A stretch of 64,000 bases of DNA, taken from the NCBI GenBank assembly GCA_944377425.1, contig CALWEX010000013.1, positions 1 through 64,000 on the forward strand, read 5' to 3'. The position numbers were made by a program, and so were the translations under genes. The number at the start of each line of letters is the position of its first letter. Position 1 is the first letter of the stretch. Below the pieces are notes generated by a model that worked only from the letters and a program-made list of their open reading frames with translations, did not search any database and had not been told where the DNA came from. Positions 8,074-32,739 of this stretch are shown here, piece after piece. Origin of the DNA: an uncultured Clostridia bacterium. GTDB taxonomy: Bacteria > Bacillota > Clostridia > Lachnospirales > Anaerotignaceae.

Positions 8074-8850
8074 TTACATTTTATCTTTAATTTCTTTTAC
8101 TGAATTTTTGTAGCTGTTTATATACATAATTAAATCTATACCAAAAAGTACAGCATCAAAACCATCTTTAAATTGTTCTATAGCCGCATTTGTATTTCCT
8201 GCAAAGTCTATTGCCATTTTTTTATTCTTTTTGCATGCATCTATTATTCTTCTAATAGCATTTATAAGCATCGGGTTATCAAATTCACCAGCTATGCCCA
8301 TATCTATTGATAAATCGTAAGGGCCTACAAGTATTCCGTCAACGCCTTCAAGAGCTGTAATTTCTTCAATATGCTCAAGGCAACCTACAGTTTCGCACTG
8401 CGGAATAAGCAGGGTGTTTTTATTACAGTAGTCCATATATTCTCTTAAAGTGCCACTGCTGTTTTGGGCAAAGCCCCAGCCGCCATCACGAGTCATACAG
8501 TATCCACGCTCTCCAACAGGTGTAAATTTTGCATGCTTTATAAGTTCTTTAACTTGTTCCACATTTGTAACAGATGGAACTGCTATTCCAGCTGCACCGG
8601 CGTCGAGCATGTGCAGTATATGCTCTTTATTCATACTGCTTATTCTGATAATAGCAGGTAAACCCGCAGCTGAAGCGGCAGTTAAGCACTTAGCAGCTTC
8701 ATCATTATCAAGAGGGGAATGTTCCATATCAAGCATAACAAAATCAACCCCAGTATAGCCCAAAGCTTCTATGGCTGTCATGCTTTTTATATGCGAAATG
8801 GTTCCAAGTATTTTTTCTCCGTTATTAAATTTTTCAATTAACTTGTTCAT
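8074..8850 (-). CDS. HpcH/HpaI aldolase family protein
   Basis: The 258-residue protein has the class II pyruvate aldolase signature: VMLDMEHSP, RISSM, GAAGIAVPSV and GVDGILVGPYDLSIDMG. The acidic residue in MLDMEH and those in the GPYDLS loop bind metal and substrate. Family members split or join pyruvate and aldehydes (for example 2-keto-3-deoxy sugar acids). The start at 8850 follows GAGGAGG; a longer reading to 8895 has no ribosome site. It is a single gene facing hydF; the true substrate is unknown. Confidence 0.87.
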   Translation of the reverse strand: MNKLIEKFNNGEKILGTISHIKSMTAIEALGYTGVDFVMLDMEHSPLDNDEAAKCLTAASAAGLPAIIRISSMNKEHILHMLDAGAAGIAVPSVTNVEQVKELIKHAKFTPVGERGYCMTRDGGWGFAQNSSGTLREYMDYCNKNTLLIPQCETVGCLEHIEEITALEGVDGILVGPYDLSIDMGIAGEFDNPMLINAIRRIIDACKKNKKMAIDFAGNTNAAIEQFKDGFDAVLFGIDLIMYINSYKNSVKEIKDKM

Positions 8851-9001
8851 TATAAATTCCTCCTCGCAGTTTAAATTATTATTATAGCTTAACACACATA
8901 ACAGATAATGTAAAATATTAACTTATTTTTATCAAAAATTCAACAATGTATTGAAATTAATGCAAAAAATTACATTATATTAACATTTTTTTAGGTTAGA
9001 G

Positions 9002-9030
9002 TTGAGATTTTTGCAGTTTAATTATATAAT
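9002..9030 (+). promoter_or_regulatory. Promoter of second NSS transporter
   Basis: TTGAGA (9002-9007) lies 17 nt before a perfect TATAAT (9025-9030), about 40 nt before the start codon. Confidence 0.75.
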
Positions 9031-9071
9031 GAATTAGTTATATAAAATATAAGAAAGAGTAGGGGCTTAAT

Positions 9072-10382
9072 ATGCATCATAAAAACGGAAGTTTTACTAA
9101 CTCATTGGGATTTATACTATCTTGTGTTGGTTCAGCTGTAGGATTGGGAAATATTTGGATGTTTCCTTATAGGCTGGGACAGTTTGGCGGCAGTGCTTTC
9201 CTTGTGCCTTATTTATTTTTTGTTCTTCTTTTTGGAATAACTGGTTTATCGGCAGAATTTGCCATTGGCAGGCGGTCAAAAACTGGAACATTAGGTTCTT
9301 ATGATTTATGCTGGGAAGGTAAATCAAAAATAGGCCAGAAAATGGGCTGGATTCCTTTAATGGGTTCTCTTGGAATTGCTATAGGCTATTCCATTATAAT
9401 CGGCTGGGTACTGCGTTCACTTTTTGGCTCAGTAAGTGGAGCTATTTTAAATCAGGATTCAGCGGAGTACTTTGCTCAGGCAACAGGTAATTTTGGCAGT
9501 ATTCCATGGCATTTTATTGTAGTTGCTGTTACTATGCTTTTGCTTATAACAGGTTCAGCTGTAATGATTGAAAAGGCGAATAAAATAATGATGCCGATAT
9601 TTTTTATTCTATTTGCAGTATTGGCTGTAAGAGTTTTCTTCCTTGCTGGCTCTTTTGACGGCTATAAATTTCTTCTTGTGCCAAGATGGAGTGAGCTTTT
9701 GAATTTTAACACATGGGTAATGGCTATGGGACAGGCTTTCTTCTCCCTTTCAATTACAGGCAGCGGAATGATTGTTTATGGTTCTTATCTTAACAAAAAT
9801 GAAAATATAATTTCGGCTTCAGTAAGAACAGTAGGTTTTGATACTTTAGCCGCTTTGCTTTCAGCTTTTGCTATAATGCCGGCAGTATTTGCTTTTGGAA
9901 TAGAGCCGGGAAGCGGTCCTTCATTGCTGTTTATTACAATACCACATATATTTAAGCAAATGTTTGCAGGACAGATTTTTTCAATTATATTCTTCCTTTC
10001 AGTTTGCTTTGCTGGTATAACATCACTTATGAATATGTTTGAGGCTGTAATAGAAAGCCTTCAGCATAAGTTTAATATGAACAGAAAACTGGCTGTTGTG
10101 CTTTGTGGTGTTATATGTTTTGGTGTAGGTATTTTCCTTGAGTCTGAAAGTGCTGTAGGCAACTGGATGGACTTTATAACAATTATAATTGTTCCATTTG
10201 GTGCATTATTTGGTGCTTTTTCAATATACTATATATTCGGATTTGATAAAATTAAAGAGGAGCTTAACCAAGGCAATGAAAAGGGTATACCAGCATGGTT
10301 TGGACCTATTGCCAAGTATGTATATGTTCCTTTAACAGTTATAGTGTTTATATTAGGTATTATATTTAAAGGAATAGGTTAA
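9072..10382 (+). CDS. Sodium-dependent transporter, NSS (SLC6) family, second copy
   Basis: The 436-residue protein carries GSAVGLGNIWMFPYR in its first helix, the NSS signature with a W-M-F change relative to the first copy, and about 11 hydrophobic helices. It is homologous to, but clearly diverged from, the protein at 900-2297, so it probably moves a different substrate. It has its own promoter and a terminator, so it is a single-gene unit. AGGGG precedes the ATG. Confidence 0.9.
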   Translation: MHHKNGSFTNSLGFILSCVGSAVGLGNIWMFPYRLGQFGGSAFLVPYLFFVLLFGITGLSAEFAIGRRSKTGTLGSYDLCWEGKSKIGQKMGWIPLMGSLGIAIGYSIIIGWVLRSLFGSVSGAILNQDSAEYFAQATGNFGSIPWHFIVVAVTMLLLITGSAVMIEKANKIMMPIFFILFAVLAVRVFFLAGSFDGYKFLLVPRWSELLNFNTWVMAMGQAFFSLSITGSGMIVYGSYLNKNENIISASVRTVGFDTLAALLSAFAIMPAVFAFGIEPGSGPSLLFITIPHIFKQMFAGQIFSIIFFLSVCFAGITSLMNMFEAVIESLQHKFNMNRKLAVVLCGVICFGVGIFLESESAVGNWMDFITIIIVPFGALFGAFSIYYIFGFDKIKEELNQGNEKGIPAWFGPIAKYVYVPLTVIVFILGIIFKGIG

Positions 10383-23199: not shown

Positions 23200-23387
23200 C
23201 CTTTCTTCGTTGTTTAGTCTGTCATCATCAGCGCCGGGAGACCATACCCGGCGGACAACCCTTAATTAATGGGCTGTTTCGACTTTTACCGTGTGGCGGT
23301 GCCCCGTTAATATTCAGCCGTTAACGGTCGCTGTTGGGAGACTCTAAGCCCTTCCAACCGGGCTAAGTCATTTCTGACTATGGCTAT
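23200..23387 (-). ncRNA. Structured 5' leader of the minus operon
   Basis: Between the promoter at 23388-23416 and the first gene lie about 190 nt with no ORF and a clearly higher GC content. Hairpins can be drawn: GCCGGG/CCCGGC (about 23232-23251), CCGTTAACGG, AGCCC/GGGCT (about 23347-23364) and AGTCA/TGACT (about 23366-23379). It may be a regulatory leader or a separate small RNA. No known class was recognised. Confidence 0.4.
23214..23233 (-). repeat. 20-bp direct repeat, copy 2
   Basis: This is the perfect second copy of the repeat at 22897-22916, located in the leader 30 nt before the gene starting at 23183. Confidence 0.75.
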
Positions 23388-26366: not shown

Positions 26367-26732
26367 ATGATTTTTAAAAACAAAAACACACAAAATAATA
26401 TTCAATCAGAAGAAGAACCTAAAAAAGACATAGAACAGCCTGTAGAGCAGGTCGCTACTAAACCTATAAGAAAAATTATCAACGGTAAGCTTTATGATAC
26501 TTCAAAAGCCACATGTATTTGTGAATATCTAGTAGACACTGATACAATTCCTACGGTTAGTATTTATCCAAGGCGTTATACAGATATATCGATTTATAAA
26601 GGCAATACTGAATGGTTTATTGTAATCTGTGGAGATATAGTTGTTTTAGATGAATTTTATATAAAAGTTATTTTAGGCAGAGACAATGTTGAAAAATATA
26701 TAGAACTATTTGGCGAACCGGAATTAGCATAA
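26367..26732 (+). CDS. Hypothetical phage protein
   Basis: The 121-residue protein has a charged, disordered first 35 residues and then a compact domain starting RKIINGKLYDTSKATCIC and containing SIYKGNTEWF. The YDTSKA block is often seen in hypothetical proteins of Clostridia elements. AGGAG lies about 10 nt before the ATG, overlapping the preceding gene's end. Function unknown. Confidence 0.55.
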   Translation: MIFKNKNTQNNIQSEEEPKKDIEQPVEQVATKPIRKIINGKLYDTSKATCICEYLVDTDTIPTVSIYPRRYTDISIYKGNTEWFIVICGDIVVLDEFYIKVILGRDNVEKYIELFGEPELA

Positions 26733-26747
26733 ATTTTAGCAAATAAA

Positions 26748-26772
26748 AAAGCCACTCAATAGAGTAGCTTAT
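26748..26772. terminator. Bidirectional terminator
   Basis: Stem AAGC.ACTC/GAGT.GCTT around AATA (about 26749-26770) with A's and T's on the flanks separates converging genes. Confidence 0.65.
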
Positions 26773-26777
26773 AAATA

Positions 26778-26939
26778 TTATTTATTCACACTTTCGAGAA
26801 ACATTAAAATAGCTTTGTCAAGCAATTTGCTCATAGGTATAGACGTTTCGTCAGAATACTTTTTAAGCCTTTTATAAAGCTCGTTATCAACCGCATTAGA
26901 AATAGCGGTACGGTTTTTAAGTCCTCGGTTAGAAACCAT
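26778..26939 (-). CDS. Ribbon-helix-helix protein (Arc/CopG-like)
   Basis: The 53-residue protein (MVSNRGLKNRTAISNAVDNE at its start) has a basic strand followed by two helices (LYKRLKKYSDE and PMSKLLDKAILMFLES), the RHH DNA-binding pattern. The stop is at 26778 and GGAGG is 8 nt before the ATG. It is divergent from the serine recombinase, with repeated 10-bp motifs between them, so it probably controls both genes. It could also be a recombination directionality factor or an antitoxin without toxin. Confidence 0.7.
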   Translation of the reverse strand: MVSNRGLKNRTAISNAVDNELYKRLKKYSDETSIPMSKLLDKAILMFLESVNK

Positions 26940-26997
26940 ATAATCAACCTCCTTTTAGGACATTATAAAACTACATTCAATTTATTTCAATATCTGC

Positions 26998-27045
26998 TTG
27001 AAAAAATAAAACAAATATAGTATAATTGAAAGTAGTTGAAAGTAG
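26998..27045 (+). promoter_or_regulatory. Recombinase promoter with tandem operator repeats
   Basis: TTGAAA (26998-27003), 17-nt spacer and TATAAT (27021-27026) are followed by two tandem copies of TTGAAAGTAG (27026-27035, 27036-27045). A near copy in opposite orientation lies at 26971-26980. Tandem short repeats are the usual target of RHH dimers. Confidence 0.65.
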
Positions 27046-27065
27046 TTTAAGAAGGGGGCTTGAAT

Positions 27066-27839
27066 ATGAGAATATATGCTTATTATAGAGTTTCTACACA
27101 GACACAGGCTGAACAGAACGGCATTGAAATGCAGATAAACGAAGTTGAAAGATACTGCAAAGAAAAGGGCATTACTCTTGCTGATAGTTTCAAAGATGAG
27201 GGAATATCCGGCACAAGAGCAGACAGAGAAGGTTTAAATGACCTTTTGGCAACATTAGAAAAAGGCGATAAGGTTATTGTTCAGAATACATCAAGGCTTT
27301 GGCGAAATGATAGCGTCAAGGTTATGGTGCATCACGAAATGAAGAAGTGTGGCGCTGACATAATAAGTGTTGAACAGCCAACTTATTCAATCAATAGTAA
27401 GGACCCTAACGATTTTCTGTTTAACGGTATGATGGAATTATTAGACCAGTATGAAAGAATGACAATTTCAATGAAACTTGCCAAAGGAAGAAAAGCAAGA
27501 GCCAAAACAGGTAATAAACCTTGCGGCACTGCTCCATACGGCTATAAATGGCAGGGCAACAACATTGTAGTAGATTTCAATAATAATCTTGTAGTCAAAG
27601 ATATATTTGAGAAATATACACAGCTTAGAAGCCTTGCAAAGTTAAAAGAATATTGTGACGGTAAAGGTTATAAAACGTCAACTGGTAAGGATTTCAGCAA
27701 ACAATCACTTAAAAACATAATTGAGAATGATTTCTATATCGGTGTTGTAACTTATGCCGGAAAGAAAATCGTAGGCGAACATGAAGCTTTAATTGAAAAG
27801 ACATTGTTTGATAGAGCTAATGAAATTTTAAAAAGATAG
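27066..27839 (+). CDS. Serine site-specific recombinase
   Basis: The 257-residue protein has the resolvase/invertase catalytic domain: YYRVST with the active serine at residue 10, GISGTRADREG and the later arginine-rich VQNTSRLWRN. A shortened recombinase domain follows (KPCGTAPYGYKW to the end). It lacks the long zinc-ribbon/coiled-coil tail of phage large serine integrases. It may be the prophage integrase of a compact type, or an internal resolvase/invertase. GAAGGGGG is 7 nt before the ATG at 27066. Confidence 0.88.
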   Translation: MRIYAYYRVSTQTQAEQNGIEMQINEVERYCKEKGITLADSFKDEGISGTRADREGLNDLLATLEKGDKVIVQNTSRLWRNDSVKVMVHHEMKKCGADIISVEQPTYSINSKDPNDFLFNGMMELLDQYERMTISMKLAKGRKARAKTGNKPCGTAPYGYKWQGNNIVVDFNNNLVVKDIFEKYTQLRSLAKLKEYCDGKGYKTSTGKDFSKQSLKNIIENDFYIGVVTYAGKKIVGEHEALIEKTLFDRANEILKR

Positions 27840-27859
27840 ACGAAATAAGGTGATTTAAA

Positions 27860-27991
27860 ATGCCAGTCCATAAAGTAAATGGTGGTTATAAGTTTGGCAG
27901 TAAAGGTAAGCTTTATAAGGGCAAAGGCGCTAAAAAGAAAGCGCAAAAACAAGCAAAGGCAATATACGCAAGTGGCTATAAAGAAAAATAA
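27860..27991 (+). CDS. Small conserved phage protein (43 residues)
   Basis: The ORF encodes MPVHKVNGGYKFGSKGKLYK and ends QAKAIYASGYKEK; it is very basic. Short proteins with this MPVHK...G.GY...G..YKG...A..QA.AIYASG pattern recur in tailed phages near packaging genes, with no known role. AAGGTGATT precedes its ATG. Confidence 0.65.
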   Translation: MPVHKVNGGYKFGSKGKLYKGKGAKKKAQKQAKAIYASGYKEK

Positions 27992-28182
27992 AATTACTTT
28001 CGAGGAGGAATAAAAAGCCTCGTTAAAAAAGCTCAGGAGCAGAAACCTGATAGGCAATAAAAAAGAGTTAGTGAGCTGATAACCGCTGGAAAGTAACGGG
28101 TTTTGTCTGTACCATAACAGATTGGTGGCCGGAGCCATTGATTGGGTGTAAACCAAAGCTGCGAGGCAGTACCGGCATATAT

Positions 28183-28254
28183 AGGGCTATCGCCAAGTGG
28201 TAAGGCACAGGATTTTGGCTCCTGCATTCCCGGGTTCAAATCCCGGTAGCCTCG
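28183..28254 (+). tRNA. tRNA-Gln (anticodon TTG)
   Basis: A full cloverleaf is present: acceptor 28183-28189 with 28247-28253, D arm GCC/GGC, anticodon arm CAGGA/TCCTG with loop TTTTGGC (anticodon TTG), five-base variable loop, T arm CCGGG-TTCAAAT-CCCGG. The discriminator is G28254 and CCA is not encoded. The acceptor is imperfect: A1 faces C72 and G2 pairs with U71, where bacterial tRNA-Gln normally has a weak U1-A72 pair. Confidence 0.88.
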
Positions 28255-28542
28255 TTTAAACCCTCATGGTTTATATTACACCTCACCCCATAGCGGAAAA
28301 CTGTTAAGAGCCGTCACAAGGCTCGTGGGGCTTTGGCGGAGAAACCGCCGAATATTAAACATGCACAGCCCTTGCATACATACAATGGGCGACCTCATTA
28401 CCTTACTCCTTCAAAACCTTAAACACAAGTGGAATGTAAAGGCGGCGAACCACTTTAAAAACATACGGGCCGAGGTAAGACACTTATAAATGGAAGTGTT
28501 GGTTGACTCTTGAGCGTAGCCGGTGGTTTACGGAGTCAAAAA

Positions 28543-28600
28543 TGCTCATGTAACAGTAAAGGCTGTATATAGTAGGGTTCAACTCCCTACCATGAGAATT
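28543..28600 (+). ncRNA. tRNA-like 3' domain (acceptor and T arm without D and anticodon arms)
   Basis: CTCATG (28545-28550) pairs with CATGAG (28591-28596). Inside are a short hairpin ACAG/CTGT (28553-28566) and a perfect T arm TAGGG-TTCAACT-CCCTA (28573-28589). There is no room for a D arm or anticodon arm, so it cannot be a normal tRNA. It ends the candidate giant RNA. Confidence 0.6.
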
Positions 28601-28635
28601 TATATTATTTGCGAAAGTTAAGCGAGGTATCTAAG

Positions 28636-28968
28636 ATGACTAAAAATGAATTACTTGAAAATTACACAATGGACGAATTGGCGAACATGATTTTGTCTTT
28701 AAAGAATGAGAAAGCAAAACTTGCATGTGAACTTTCAAAATTAAAAGCAGAAGCAAAGACAGCAAAGAAAAATGATTGTTTGCCGGATAGCCCTATAGAT
28801 GTTGCTAGAATGCTTATAAATGCAACATGTGAATATGAAACAAACTCATTGCAGAGAGCAATAGGCTTTAACGAAAAAGAATTAACTGCTAAATACTCAT
28901 GCGAAGAATTGCGTGAAATATGCGGCTATTTAGAAAACTACTGTGACTTTAACGAAGATGATGAATAA
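28636..28968 (+). CDS. Hypothetical phage protein with coiled-coil start
   Basis: The 110-residue protein starts MTKNELLENYTMDELANMIL and has a helical, charged N-terminal half followed by a compact acidic end (ELREICGYLENYCDFNEDDE). The ATG at 28636 is 8 nt after GAGG; a TTG at 28609 has no ribosome site. It is the first of five small genes before the terminase. Not recognised. Confidence 0.55.
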   Translation: MTKNELLENYTMDELANMILSLKNEKAKLACELSKLKAEAKTAKKNDCLPDSPIDVARMLINATCEYETNSLQRAIGFNEKELTAKYSCEELREICGYLENYCDFNEDDE

Positions 28969-28984
28969 ATAAGCGGTGATTACT

Positions 28985-29194
28985 TTGGTTACACAAAAAG
29001 AAGTACATAATTTTTTAGTTAACAACACTACTATGTGTCAAAAAATACATCTTTCTGCTGCTTATGGTAATGATGTTGAAAAAATAAAATCTTTTGAAAA
29101 AGATGTTGCTAACTTTATAAACGGATTTACCGAAACATACAAGACTTCATTAGGCCCAGTGGTTGATTATTTAACTCATGAAATCAAAGATTGA
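28985..29194 (+). CDS. Small hypothetical phage protein
   Basis: The 69-residue helical protein starts at TTG 28985 (AAGCGGTGA is 6 nt upstream); a GTG at 28976 is inside that site. No family recognised. Confidence 0.5.
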   Translation: MVTQKEVHNFLVNNTTMCQKIHLSAAYGNDVEKIKSFEKDVANFINGFTETYKTSLGPVVDYLTHEIKD

Positions 29195-29220
29195 TTTATC
29201 TTGTAAAGGGAGTGTGTAAA

Positions 29221-29478
29221 ATGGCAGAATTTCCATCAATCACAGAACTTGCTAAGGAAGTATTAGAAAAAGCCATTAGCAATACGTCAATAAATAATAT
29301 GCCACTTGATATTTTTATTAAAAGCTTATTCAGTGCCATTAACGACAATAAATGCAACTTAACCACATGCAGATATAACAAGGACAACACTTGCTGTAAC
29401 GAAGAAAAACATAAGGAATGTATTTATGTGTCGGCGGCTGTATTGTGCATAGGTGAAATATTGGATAAGGAGAAATAA
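29221..29478 (+). CDS. Cysteine-rich small phage protein
   Basis: The 85-residue protein (MAEFPSITELAKEVLEKAIS at its start) carries a cluster of cysteines and histidine (CNLTTCRYNKDNTCCNEEKH KEC), likely a metal site. AAAGGGAG precedes the ATG at 29221. Its stop overlaps the next start (TAATG). Function unknown. Confidence 0.6.
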   Translation: MAEFPSITELAKEVLEKAISNTSINNMPLDIFIKSLFSAINDNKCNLTTCRYNKDNTCCNEEKHKECIYVSAAVLCIGEILDKEK

Positions 29479-30006: not shown

Positions 30007-32739
30007 ATGTGTAAGATAGACAGAAAAGAATTATCAGAAGCTATAAAACAAGACATAAAACAGAATGGTGTACATTACCAGCATTTAACTGATTTATTGG
30101 ATTTGTGCATTGGAGAAACAAGAGAAAATAAAAACTTTGATAAAGATTATTGGTTTCATGTAAGCAACTATATAAAAACAGCGGCTTCCGCTTTACACAT
30201 AGATACATGTGATGAAAAGTTTGGGAAACTGTATTGGAAAACAATGCTGTTTGAAACACCGTATCTTTTCGAGAGCTTTATTTATTACATGGAAAAGAAT
30301 AGAAAGCCGGAGAAAAAATTTTATGAGCCGAGGAAAGAAACGTTAAATGTTGTTGTCGCTGATTTACAAGAGCTTGAAGATAATCCCAAAAAATTTTATG
30401 GTTTGTCTATGCCAAGCCGTGTTGGTAAAGCCATCGCTTTTGATACTCCTGTTTTGACAAATCATGGCTGGAAAAAACATGGAGAGCTTACAATTCTTGA
30501 TAAAGTAATAGGGATTGACGGAAATTTCAAAAAAATACTTGCAATTCATAACCCTTGTGAAATGGAATATAAAATTACATTTTCTGACGGAGAAGAAATA
30601 ATATGTCACGGAAACCACGAGTGGAGAGTCTTTGACAGGCACGGACGGAAAATAATTGACCAAGAAACAAAAGTGATTTTTGAGACATACAAAGAGAAAG
30701 ACGGAAGATGCAGATATTATATACCAAAAAAGGAAGTTCTAAGCGGCTCTAATAAATCTTTGCTGGTATCTCCATATACTTTAGGTGCATGGCTTGGAGA
30801 CGGAAGAAATAACAATCCAGATATTTGTGGAGCAGAATCTGATTATGCAATAGTTCAAAAGATTATTGACGATGGATACGAATTGGCTTGGGATACAAAG
30901 CATAAAACAACTGGAGTTAGATATTATGGATTCCGAAATTTAAGAAAGAATTTACAACATTATGGAATGTGTCACAGCCGAAGAACTACTCCAAAGCATA
31001 TTCCAGACGAATATTTAATTGCTGACGTTGAACAAAGATTAGAATTACTGGCTGGATTGTTAGATACAGACGGAAGTTTAAATAAAAAAGAGCATAGATA
31101 CTATTTTACGACAAATGCACCGCAATTAAGAGATGATTTTGTTTCGTTAGTTAATACGTTTGGGTGGAGAACTTGCGTTACTCGATATGAAAAGGGTATG
31201 AGTTCTTCAGGTATAAATGCAAACAAACCATATTGGGTTGTATCTTTCAATCCTACAATGCATATTCCCTGTCAGCTTGAAAGAAAAAAATTATATGAGT
31301 TTTCTCGCCAAAGAATGACATCTATTGAAAAAGTCGAGAAAGTTAATACGGGAATAGGTGGTAATTGCATAACTGTTGAAGATGGAATATATTGTGTTGG
31401 TAAAACATTAAAACCTACACATAATAGCACAATTTGTATTTTTTTCTTTGGGTGGATAGCAGCTAAGAAACCAAACAGCCATAATGCAATGGGCGGACAT
31501 TCCGGTATTTTAGCTAAAGGTTTTTATAAAGAGCTATTAAATCTGATGACAACAGAGGAATATACATTCAAAGAAATATTCGATTATATACACCCTGAGT
31601 ATGCAAATAAGCCATTCCCAACAGATAAAAGTGCTGATGAATTTACAATAACATTAGGCGACCCAGATAGATTCGCTACAATTACATGCCGCGGTATTGA
31701 AGGAACATGGACAGGAGCTATTGACGTATCATCAGACGGCTATTTGTATGTTGACGACCTTGTTCGAGATAGGGAACATTCGTTAAGTCCTACTCGTATG
31801 GAGAATACATATCAAGAGTATTTAAACAAAATGGTAGACCGTAAAAATGACGGTTCAAAAGAGCTTATGGTTGGTACATTGTGGAATGTATTAGACCCGT
31901 TAGAGCGAATGAGAAAGCAATATGACGGCACAAAGGGTTATAAGTTCAGAAAGATACCGGCTTTAAACGAAAATGAAGAAAGCAACTTTAACTACAAAAT
32001 AAACGGATTTTCAACAGAATACTATTTGGAAATGCGTGAAAAATTGGATAATGCTGAGTGGATGGCGAAATTCATGCAACAGCCGTATGTAAGGGAAGGT
32101 ATTTTGTTTCAGACTGACGAATTGCGATACTTTAACGGTATACTTCCTGAAACTGACCATAGAATAGTTGCCGTTGTGGACGTTGCTCTTGGTGGCGGAG
32201 ATAGCTTATCAATGCCTATCGGGGCTGAATATGAAAATGGTGACGTATATATATTTGACTGGGTATTTAATCGTGGACCGAAAGAAGTAACATTGCCGAT
32301 AGTAGTTGGAAAGATAATGGGAAATGAAATAAGAGAAACACGTTTTGAAGCTAACCAGGGCGGTGACTTGTATTGCGGCTTAGTAGATTCTATGTTGCAG
32401 GAACAACATTATAAATGTAGTTGTACGCATAGAAAGGCACCTAACAAAATGGAAAAGAAATCAAAGATAATTGCTTATTCAGGAGATGTTAAGCGTAAAT
32501 TTATTTTTTTACAATCTAAATTGCCAACTGTTGAAGAAAAAGAACAAGACGCTAAAAATAACATTAAGCGTTATTACAGAACTAAAGAATATCAAGCGGC
32601 AATGGACGAATTAACAACATTTGTCACAATAGGCGATAATCCATTTGACGATGCGGCTGATAGTGTTACACAGCTTGAGATGTTCATAGAAAAGCCGGCT
32701 TCGAAGAATAGAACAAGAATTATAGCAAGTCCAATATAA
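30007..32739 (+). CDS. terL: Terminase large subunit with in-frame class 3 intein
   Basis: The 910-codon ORF joins a terminase large subunit (578 residues when spliced) and an intein (residues 142-473). The extein has the packaging ATPase P-loop MPSRVGK/ST split by the intein, a Walker B-like stretch (YLYVDD) and a C-terminal RNase H-like nuclease part opening VVDVALGGGDS. Terminase cuts the phage concatemer and pumps DNA into the procapsid. The gene is followed by the late regulator, portal and head genes. No small terminase was recognised upstream. The ATG is the only in-frame start near the ribosome site. Confidence 0.92.
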   Translation: MCKIDRKELSEAIKQDIKQNGVHYQHLTDLLDLCIGETRENKNFDKDYWFHVSNYIKTAASALHIDTCDEKFGKLYWKTMLFETPYLFESFIYYMEKNRKPEKKFYEPRKETLNVVVADLQELEDNPKKFYGLSMPSRVGKAIAFDTPVLTNHGWKKHGELTILDKVIGIDGNFKKILAIHNPCEMEYKITFSDGEEIICHGNHEWRVFDRHGRKIIDQETKVIFETYKEKDGRCRYYIPKKEVLSGSNKSLLVSPYTLGAWLGDGRNNNPDICGAESDYAIVQKIIDDGYELAWDTKHKTTGVRYYGFRNLRKNLQHYGMCHSRRTTPKHIPDEYLIADVEQRLELLAGLLDTDGSLNKKEHRYYFTTNAPQLRDDFVSLVNTFGWRTCVTRYEKGMSSSGINANKPYWVVSFNPTMHIPCQLERKKLYEFSRQRMTSIEKVEKVNTGIGGNCITVEDGIYCVGKTLKPTHNSTICIFFFGWIAAKKPNSHNAMGGHSGILAKGFYKELLNLMTTEEYTFKEIFDYIHPEYANKPFPTDKSADEFTITLGDPDRFATITCRGIEGTWTGAIDVSSDGYLYVDDLVRDREHSLSPTRMENTYQEYLNKMVDRKNDGSKELMVGTLWNVLDPLERMRKQYDGTKGYKFRKIPALNENEESNFNYKINGFSTEYYLEMREKLDNAEWMAKFMQQPYVREGILFQTDELRYFNGILPETDHRIVAVVDVALGGGDSLSMPIGAEYENGDVYIFDWVFNRGPKEVTLPIVVGKIMGNEIRETRFEANQGGDLYCGLVDSMLQEQHYKCSCTHRKAPNKMEKKSKIIAYSGDVKRKFIFLQSKLPTVEEKEQDAKNNIKRYYRTKEYQAAMDELTTFVTIGDNPFDDAADSVTQLEMFIEKPASKNRTRIIASPI
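30430..31425 (+). mobile_element. Class 3 intein with LAGLIDADG homing endonuclease
   Basis: The 332-residue intein starts with alanine (AIAFDTPVLT), not Cys or Ser, and ends THN before Ser474. It carries the class 3 triad: Trp206 in block B (GNHEW), Cys463 in block F (IYCVG) and Thr471 in block G. In this class Cys463 makes the first attack instead of residue 1. The homing endonuclease motifs are LGAWLGDG (259-266) and LLAGLLDTDG (347-356) with both catalytic aspartates (D265, D355), so it looks active. Confidence 0.92.

Follow-up and report, generated by a model that had tools for sequence, protein, structure and literature searches.

The 600 nt between positions 28001 and 28600 of the window (the whole 64,000-nt stretch of DNA that was analysed, to which all coordinates refer unless a locus is named) are non-coding, GC-rich and structured. 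Compared with the sequences of other phages, the region is a mosaic of modules that are separately present elsewhere and not one conserved giant RNA. The initial annotation had proposed a single giant RNA, which is contradicted by the separate occurrence in other phages of three of its parts, namely M1, a three-way junction (3WJ) and an H-type pseudoknot. Upstream of the region are a serine recombinase gene (27060-27839) and a 43-aa ORF (27860-27991), and downstream is a run of small ORFs leading to TerL (30007-32739) and then the portal gene. TerL itself contains an insertion with a LAGLIDADG_3 domain, which is probably an intein. A Type II hammerhead ribozyme on the minus strand at 23213-23284 recurs among related phages, being found also in Dulem virus 39 and in loci L060 and L046. 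The features are as follows.

26998-27026, + strand: promoter-like site TTGAAA-17-TATAAT, 11/12 positions, upstream of the recombinase (consensus scan only)
28001-28177, + strand: M1, pseudoknotted RNA family (covariation, 10 sequences)
28001-28005/28018-28022, + strand: M1 helix P1
28033-28037/28046-28050, + strand: M1 helix P2
28122-28126/28134-28138, + strand: M1 helix P6
28142-28147/28152-28156, + strand: M1 helix P7
28159-28162/28166-28169, + strand: M1 helix P8
28128-28132/28172-28176, + strand: M1 pseudoknot of the P6 loop with the 3' end (GCCGG/CCGGC)
28182-28255, + strand: tRNA-Gln (UUG), canonical cloverleaf with anticodon (ARAGORN; Rfam tRNA, 57 bits)
28286-28330, + strand: 3WJ module (covariation and model)
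28361-28390, + strand: H-type pseudoknot with A-rich loop 3 (compensatory changes, 13 sequences)
28361-28365/28373-28377, + strand: pseudoknot stem S1
28368-28371/28387-28390, + strand: pseudoknot stem S2
28391-28544, + strand: linker with predicted hairpins, e.g., GACACTT/AAGTGTT and GACTC/GAGTC (MFE only)
28545-28597, + strand: predicted tRNA mimic with a 6-bp acceptor, D-arm, 6-bp T-arm, and discriminator A, and no anticodon arm

The region had been described as free of plausible ORFs and richer in GC than its surroundings, and both descriptions hold, with 7-13 stops per frame in all six frames and a GC content of 0.46-0.50 vs 0.28-0.40 for the flanking genes. A conserved coding frame is absent from the homologues as well, since M1 copies differ by indels of 1-2 nt and each of the six frames is interrupted by stops in L112, the copy that diverges most. 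Coding on the minus strand of M1, where some frames are open, was ruled out by the same non-triplet indels and L112 stops. The MFE of the entire 600 nt was not unusual (z=-1.5), so the structural case is built on covariation and not on energy. Compensatory changes in homologues, the check proposed with the initial annotation, were found in M1, the 3WJ, and the pseudoknot, using small module alignments and structures that were partly drawn by hand. When relatives were searched with the whole 600 nt of DNA, the matches listed beyond the window covered the tRNA-Gln part only.

The structure of M1 was derived by hand, comprises seven helices including one pseudoknot, and was tested on 10 sequences (8 in an earlier version). 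Across 33 pairs in the 10 sequences, 98.5% of cells were paired, compared with 22-44% when the helices were slid, and two-sided changes were seen at 9 of the 33 pairs. The covariation score was 0.196 vs 0.096 for shuffled alignments, and none of 500 shuffles reached the score. Helix P5 (about 28108-28121) looks real and was excluded from the counts because the alignment has it out of register. Loops are near-invariant among the copies, and the pseudoknot helix shows the exchanges C-G/U-A and G-C/A-U. This helix had been read as the closing stem of the second of two three-way junctions; the first of these stands and covaries (28286-28330), while the second coincides with the 3' half of M1 and is really a pseudoknot, because its GCCGG strand also forms the loop of a further covarying hairpin. 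On its covariation, M1 is an RNA family of about 178 nt that is new relative to Rfam 15, and Rfam searches of an M1 homologue at permissive thresholds gave chance matches only.

A blastn search detected M1, at 76% identity and with the other parts absent, in Blautia phage Montmirail; pattern scans added one Diplocloster genome and seven contigs from IMG/VR, giving nine further members in viral or prophage contigs. In these nine contigs, M1 occurs without the other modules, and M1 is likewise absent beside the 3WJ and the pseudoknot in every other phage where these were found; the blocks are combined differently in related phages. A pattern match in an archaeon (L044, one of two genome-contig matches) was rejected as chance. 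The M1 model gave no significant match among TerL relatives, a search of 195 relatives with M1 stripped of the tRNA gave nothing above chance, and among 299 genomes of the Diplocloster family, the model matched Diplocloster alone, plus one weak match (E=5e-4). The ORFs 3' of M1, read by eye, vary between carriers, which favours a trans-acting RNA over a leader.

The canonical tRNA-Gln annotated in the middle of the region was recovered at 28182-28255 by both ARAGORN and Rfam and begins 5 nt past the M1 pseudoknot. The 3WJ that follows it was first noticed in Dulem virus 39 and two IMG/VR contigs and later in phages retrieved via TerL. In nine sequences, 99.1% of its cells were paired with two-sided change at 8 pairs, and its covariation was 0.641 vs 0.163 for shuffled alignments; the conserved unpaired parts are UAGC...CUG, with the loop GUCACAA in one group. 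The strict 3WJ pattern gave no match in viral contigs, and a covariance model was required; this model gave 17 matches in 77 loci, all in phages, with E from 1e-15 to 2e-4, an additional match in L060 (E=0.009), and none other than the window itself in 59 bacterial genomes. The pairing pattern identifies the 3WJ as a further RNA family that is new relative to Rfam 15. In seven loci, the 3WJ lies 30-96 nt after a tRNA, and the order tRNA-Gln and then 3WJ, as in the window, is found also in L060, L067, and L068, whose TerL proteins are 63-78% identical to that of the window. The 3WJ is upstream of TerL on the same strand in those TerL relatives that carry it and stands immediately before an ORF in L066, as would be expected if the region held an element that serves the terminase genes in cis, as DNA or as mRNA, such as a packaging site or a leader of the next gene. 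This explanation is nevertheless highly improbable, as the distance from 3WJ to TerL ranges from about 0.6 to 6 kb, unrelated genes follow M1 and the pseudoknot, and the compensatory pairs indicate RNA.

The H-type pseudoknot was located as annotated (28361-28390), with compensatory exchanges in S1 and S2 alike among 13 sequences and a nearly invariant core, CACAGNCCUUG...ACANANAAUGGNC. Copies were found in 16 distinct phage contexts, and of 392 genomes of the order, the pattern was present in the window only and absent from the 391 others. A tRNA or tRNA-like element lies 2-3 nt 3' of the pseudoknot in 5 of the 16 distinct loci (L032, L046, L047, L049, and L088), an adjacency with a chance probability of about 8e-12; the same adjacency was seen by eye in L045, L052, and L055, which were left out of this count. 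In the phage contig L058, the pseudoknot module is followed after about 650 nt by a tmRNA match of 92.5 bits (8772-9078). Several other modules recur among these loci, namely the unnamed AGAGGUCUGAAAGAGC...GGAAGCAGACC... (L033, L048, L056, L058, and L076), CCUGGGAAGAUAACACAAGAGAACUGGG (L031, L032, L034, and L035), UAUCUYCACUUAGU...CGAUGGGAGA (L060 and L076), and GCAGAGUGGUUCACU (L032, L078, and L088).

The T-arm/acceptor domain noted at the 3' end of the region is tRNA-like (28545-28596; fold z=-2.9). It has 12 stacked acceptor/T-arm pairs, a UUCRA T-loop, and a D-arm, with the acceptor CUCAUG/CAUGAG and the T-arm GUAGGG-UUCAACU-CCCUAC, in which UUCAACU is the T-loop; only 5 nt separate the D-arm from the T-arm, leaving it without the anticodon arm of a tRNA. 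A scan with fixed criteria found this one element in the window vs 0.13 expected per 64 kb. An exact scan of viral contigs with the window's own T-arm/acceptor gave no match, and as the mimic has no direct homologue, its structure rests on a shared pattern and not on covariation. With a looser gap, the M1/pseudoknot phage loci (338 kb) yielded 31 non-canonical tRNA-like elements, 19 of them distinct, and the TerL-related loci (695 kb) yielded 16, of which 14 are distinct; these counts are upper bounds for true mimics because some may be tRNAs with odd arms or with anticodon-arm insertions. The same scan gave no such element across 178 kb of the host's chromosome and practically none in Markov sequence. 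One Trp-like element (GGGAGAT) is probably a tRNA with an odd arm overlooked by ARAGORN. Loci L060, L073, L075, L076, and L082 contain tRNA-like genes whose anticodon arm is enlarged by insertions tens of nt long; the inserted sequences could be introns or displayed RNA elements. In addition, Dulem virus 39 (L025) has a RAGATH-27 RNA and a gene for an RtcB ligase close to its tRNA region, and two RtcB genes are present in the window's host genome, on contigs other than that of the window.

The L032 mimic and its L088 sister are alike in acceptor and T arm and different in the anticodon part, a pattern that would follow from a lack of selection on decoding. Many phages preserve the acceptor and T arms, frequently together with the D arm, with the anticodon part lost or replaced, and such elements could act as decoys that bind host factors recognizing the tRNA elbow or acceptor, protecting the phage; candidate targets would be tRNA-targeting defence toxins, RNase P, and the CCA-adding enzyme. 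We regard this as improbable, as it leaves M1, the 3WJ, and the pseudoknot unexplained. A decaying tRNA array, with mimic and spacers as relics free of selection, would account for the irregular anticodon arms and for the differences in module content between phages, but is very unlikely given the intact D-arm and elbow of the window mimic, the near-invariant M1 loops, and the compensatory changes in M1 and the 3WJ, for which two modules decay is already unlikely.

The explanation that we favour, with moderate confidence, is that the region forms part of a phage tRNA array: new RNA modules, inherited independently of one another, lie between a genuine tRNA and a mimic that does not decode, and are released by processing. 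At the level of sequence, the modules are seen to stand alone elsewhere, to keep their structure through compensatory change, and to recur in phage tRNA arrays. No terminator-like site was found on the + strand within 26700-29300, and together with the promoter-like site at 26998-27026, this suggests a single transcript across the region; such a transcript would start upstream and extend through the region into the genes beyond it. RNase P and RNase Z, both known to act on tRNA precursors, would cleave this transcript at two places, tRNA-Gln and the mimic. One product would be M1 (~180 nt), with its own pseudoknot as the 3' end, 5 nt short of tRNA-Gln; the other would be an RNA of ~290 nt with the 3WJ and pseudoknot. 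The mimic, having acceptor, D, and T arms and being unable to decode, would serve as a processing signal or 3' cap, and pseudoknots upstream of a tRNA or mimic would shield the new 3' ends against exonucleases. This explanation is weakened by the M1 copies outside the window, most of which have no tRNA next in line, by the 154 nt that separate the pseudoknot from the mimic in the window, and by the lack of a direct homologue for the window's mimic.

As an alternative to processing, a single intact RNA of ~600 nt could work as a whole, for example as an assembly like the ROOL/GOLLD cages, with the tRNA and mimic as domains. Its size would equal that of ROOL, and ROOL occupies the same niche in a TerL relative. 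Separate inheritance of the modules, the unremarkable stability of the whole, the lack of an Rfam match, and the linker 28391-28544, which has no homologue (blastn matches were confined to the modules), make it unlikely, and we infer that tRNA-Gln and the mimic more plausibly separate RNA modules, or mark sites of processing between them, than form domains of one RNA. A broader proposal, speculative and rather doubtful at present, is that gut phages possess a modular RNA system in which non-decoding mimics, their anticodon arm deleted or replaced, process and cap a repertoire of structured RNAs ending in exonuclease-resistant pseudoknots, with ROOL as one among several interchangeable cargos. 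If true, bacterial viruses would have their own equivalent of 3'-end formation in MALAT1/mascRNA.

In MALAT1/mascRNA, a U-rich triple helix of a eukaryotic lncRNA lies directly upstream of a tRNA-like element that is cut by RNase P. The favoured processing arrangement would operate in a like manner, with a protective tertiary element 5' of a tRNA-like element; homology is not claimed, the phage element is an H-type pseudoknot instead of a triple helix, and cutting by RNase P is here only proposed. The mimic resembles the tRNA-like domain of tmRNA in having acceptor, D, and T arms and no anticodon arm, but in tmRNA this domain is interrupted by a long insert, which holds pseudoknots and the tag ORF, whereas the mimic is contiguous and compact (52 nt), and the Rfam tmRNA model scored it at 10.3 bits against 47, through the T-arm only.

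ROOL and skipping-rope RNA reportedly come from a 2017 survey. The kinship to ROOL and GOLLD suggested in the initial annotation was borne out for the niche and not for identity. No match to ROOL (RF03087) or GOLLD was found at E<=10 in 27850-28750, where Rfam at permissive thresholds returned chance matches only, while the same library detected ROOL in L075 (5766-6350, 358.7 bits) inside a tRNA array upstream of a TerL that is 58% identical, beside skipping-rope RNA. At 5620-5772 of L075, skipping-rope RNA seemingly replaces the anticodon loop of a tRNA-like body (acceptor pairs 5/7 only). Skipping-rope RNA (RF02924; L075 5656-5737) is likewise a small structured RNA in a tRNA array of the same kind, and has no match in the window. 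GOLLD is also a phage or prophage RNA near tRNAs, and its conserved 3' half is missing from the window. ROOL is, like the region, a large structured phage RNA of tRNA islands, but is one unit and matches the separate window modules in neither sequence nor structure. ROOL and GOLLD are found near tRNA islands, with tRNAs sometimes within the GOLLD linker (PMC12286853), and the location of the region is of this type, with tRNA-Gln inside 28001-28600 and TerL and portal downstream. The analysis thus adds three covarying RNA families (M1, 3WJ, and pseudoknot) absent from Rfam 15 and a recurrent phage class of non-canonical, often anticodon-less tRNA mimics mostly missed by the tRNA finders used. 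Since the new families and mimics share one genomic niche with ROOL, the function of ROOL/GOLLD-type RNAs can be tested through what the niche needs instead of through the look of one RNA, and since a TerL relative holds ROOL in its tRNA array, the region probably adds a new occupant to a niche that was already known.
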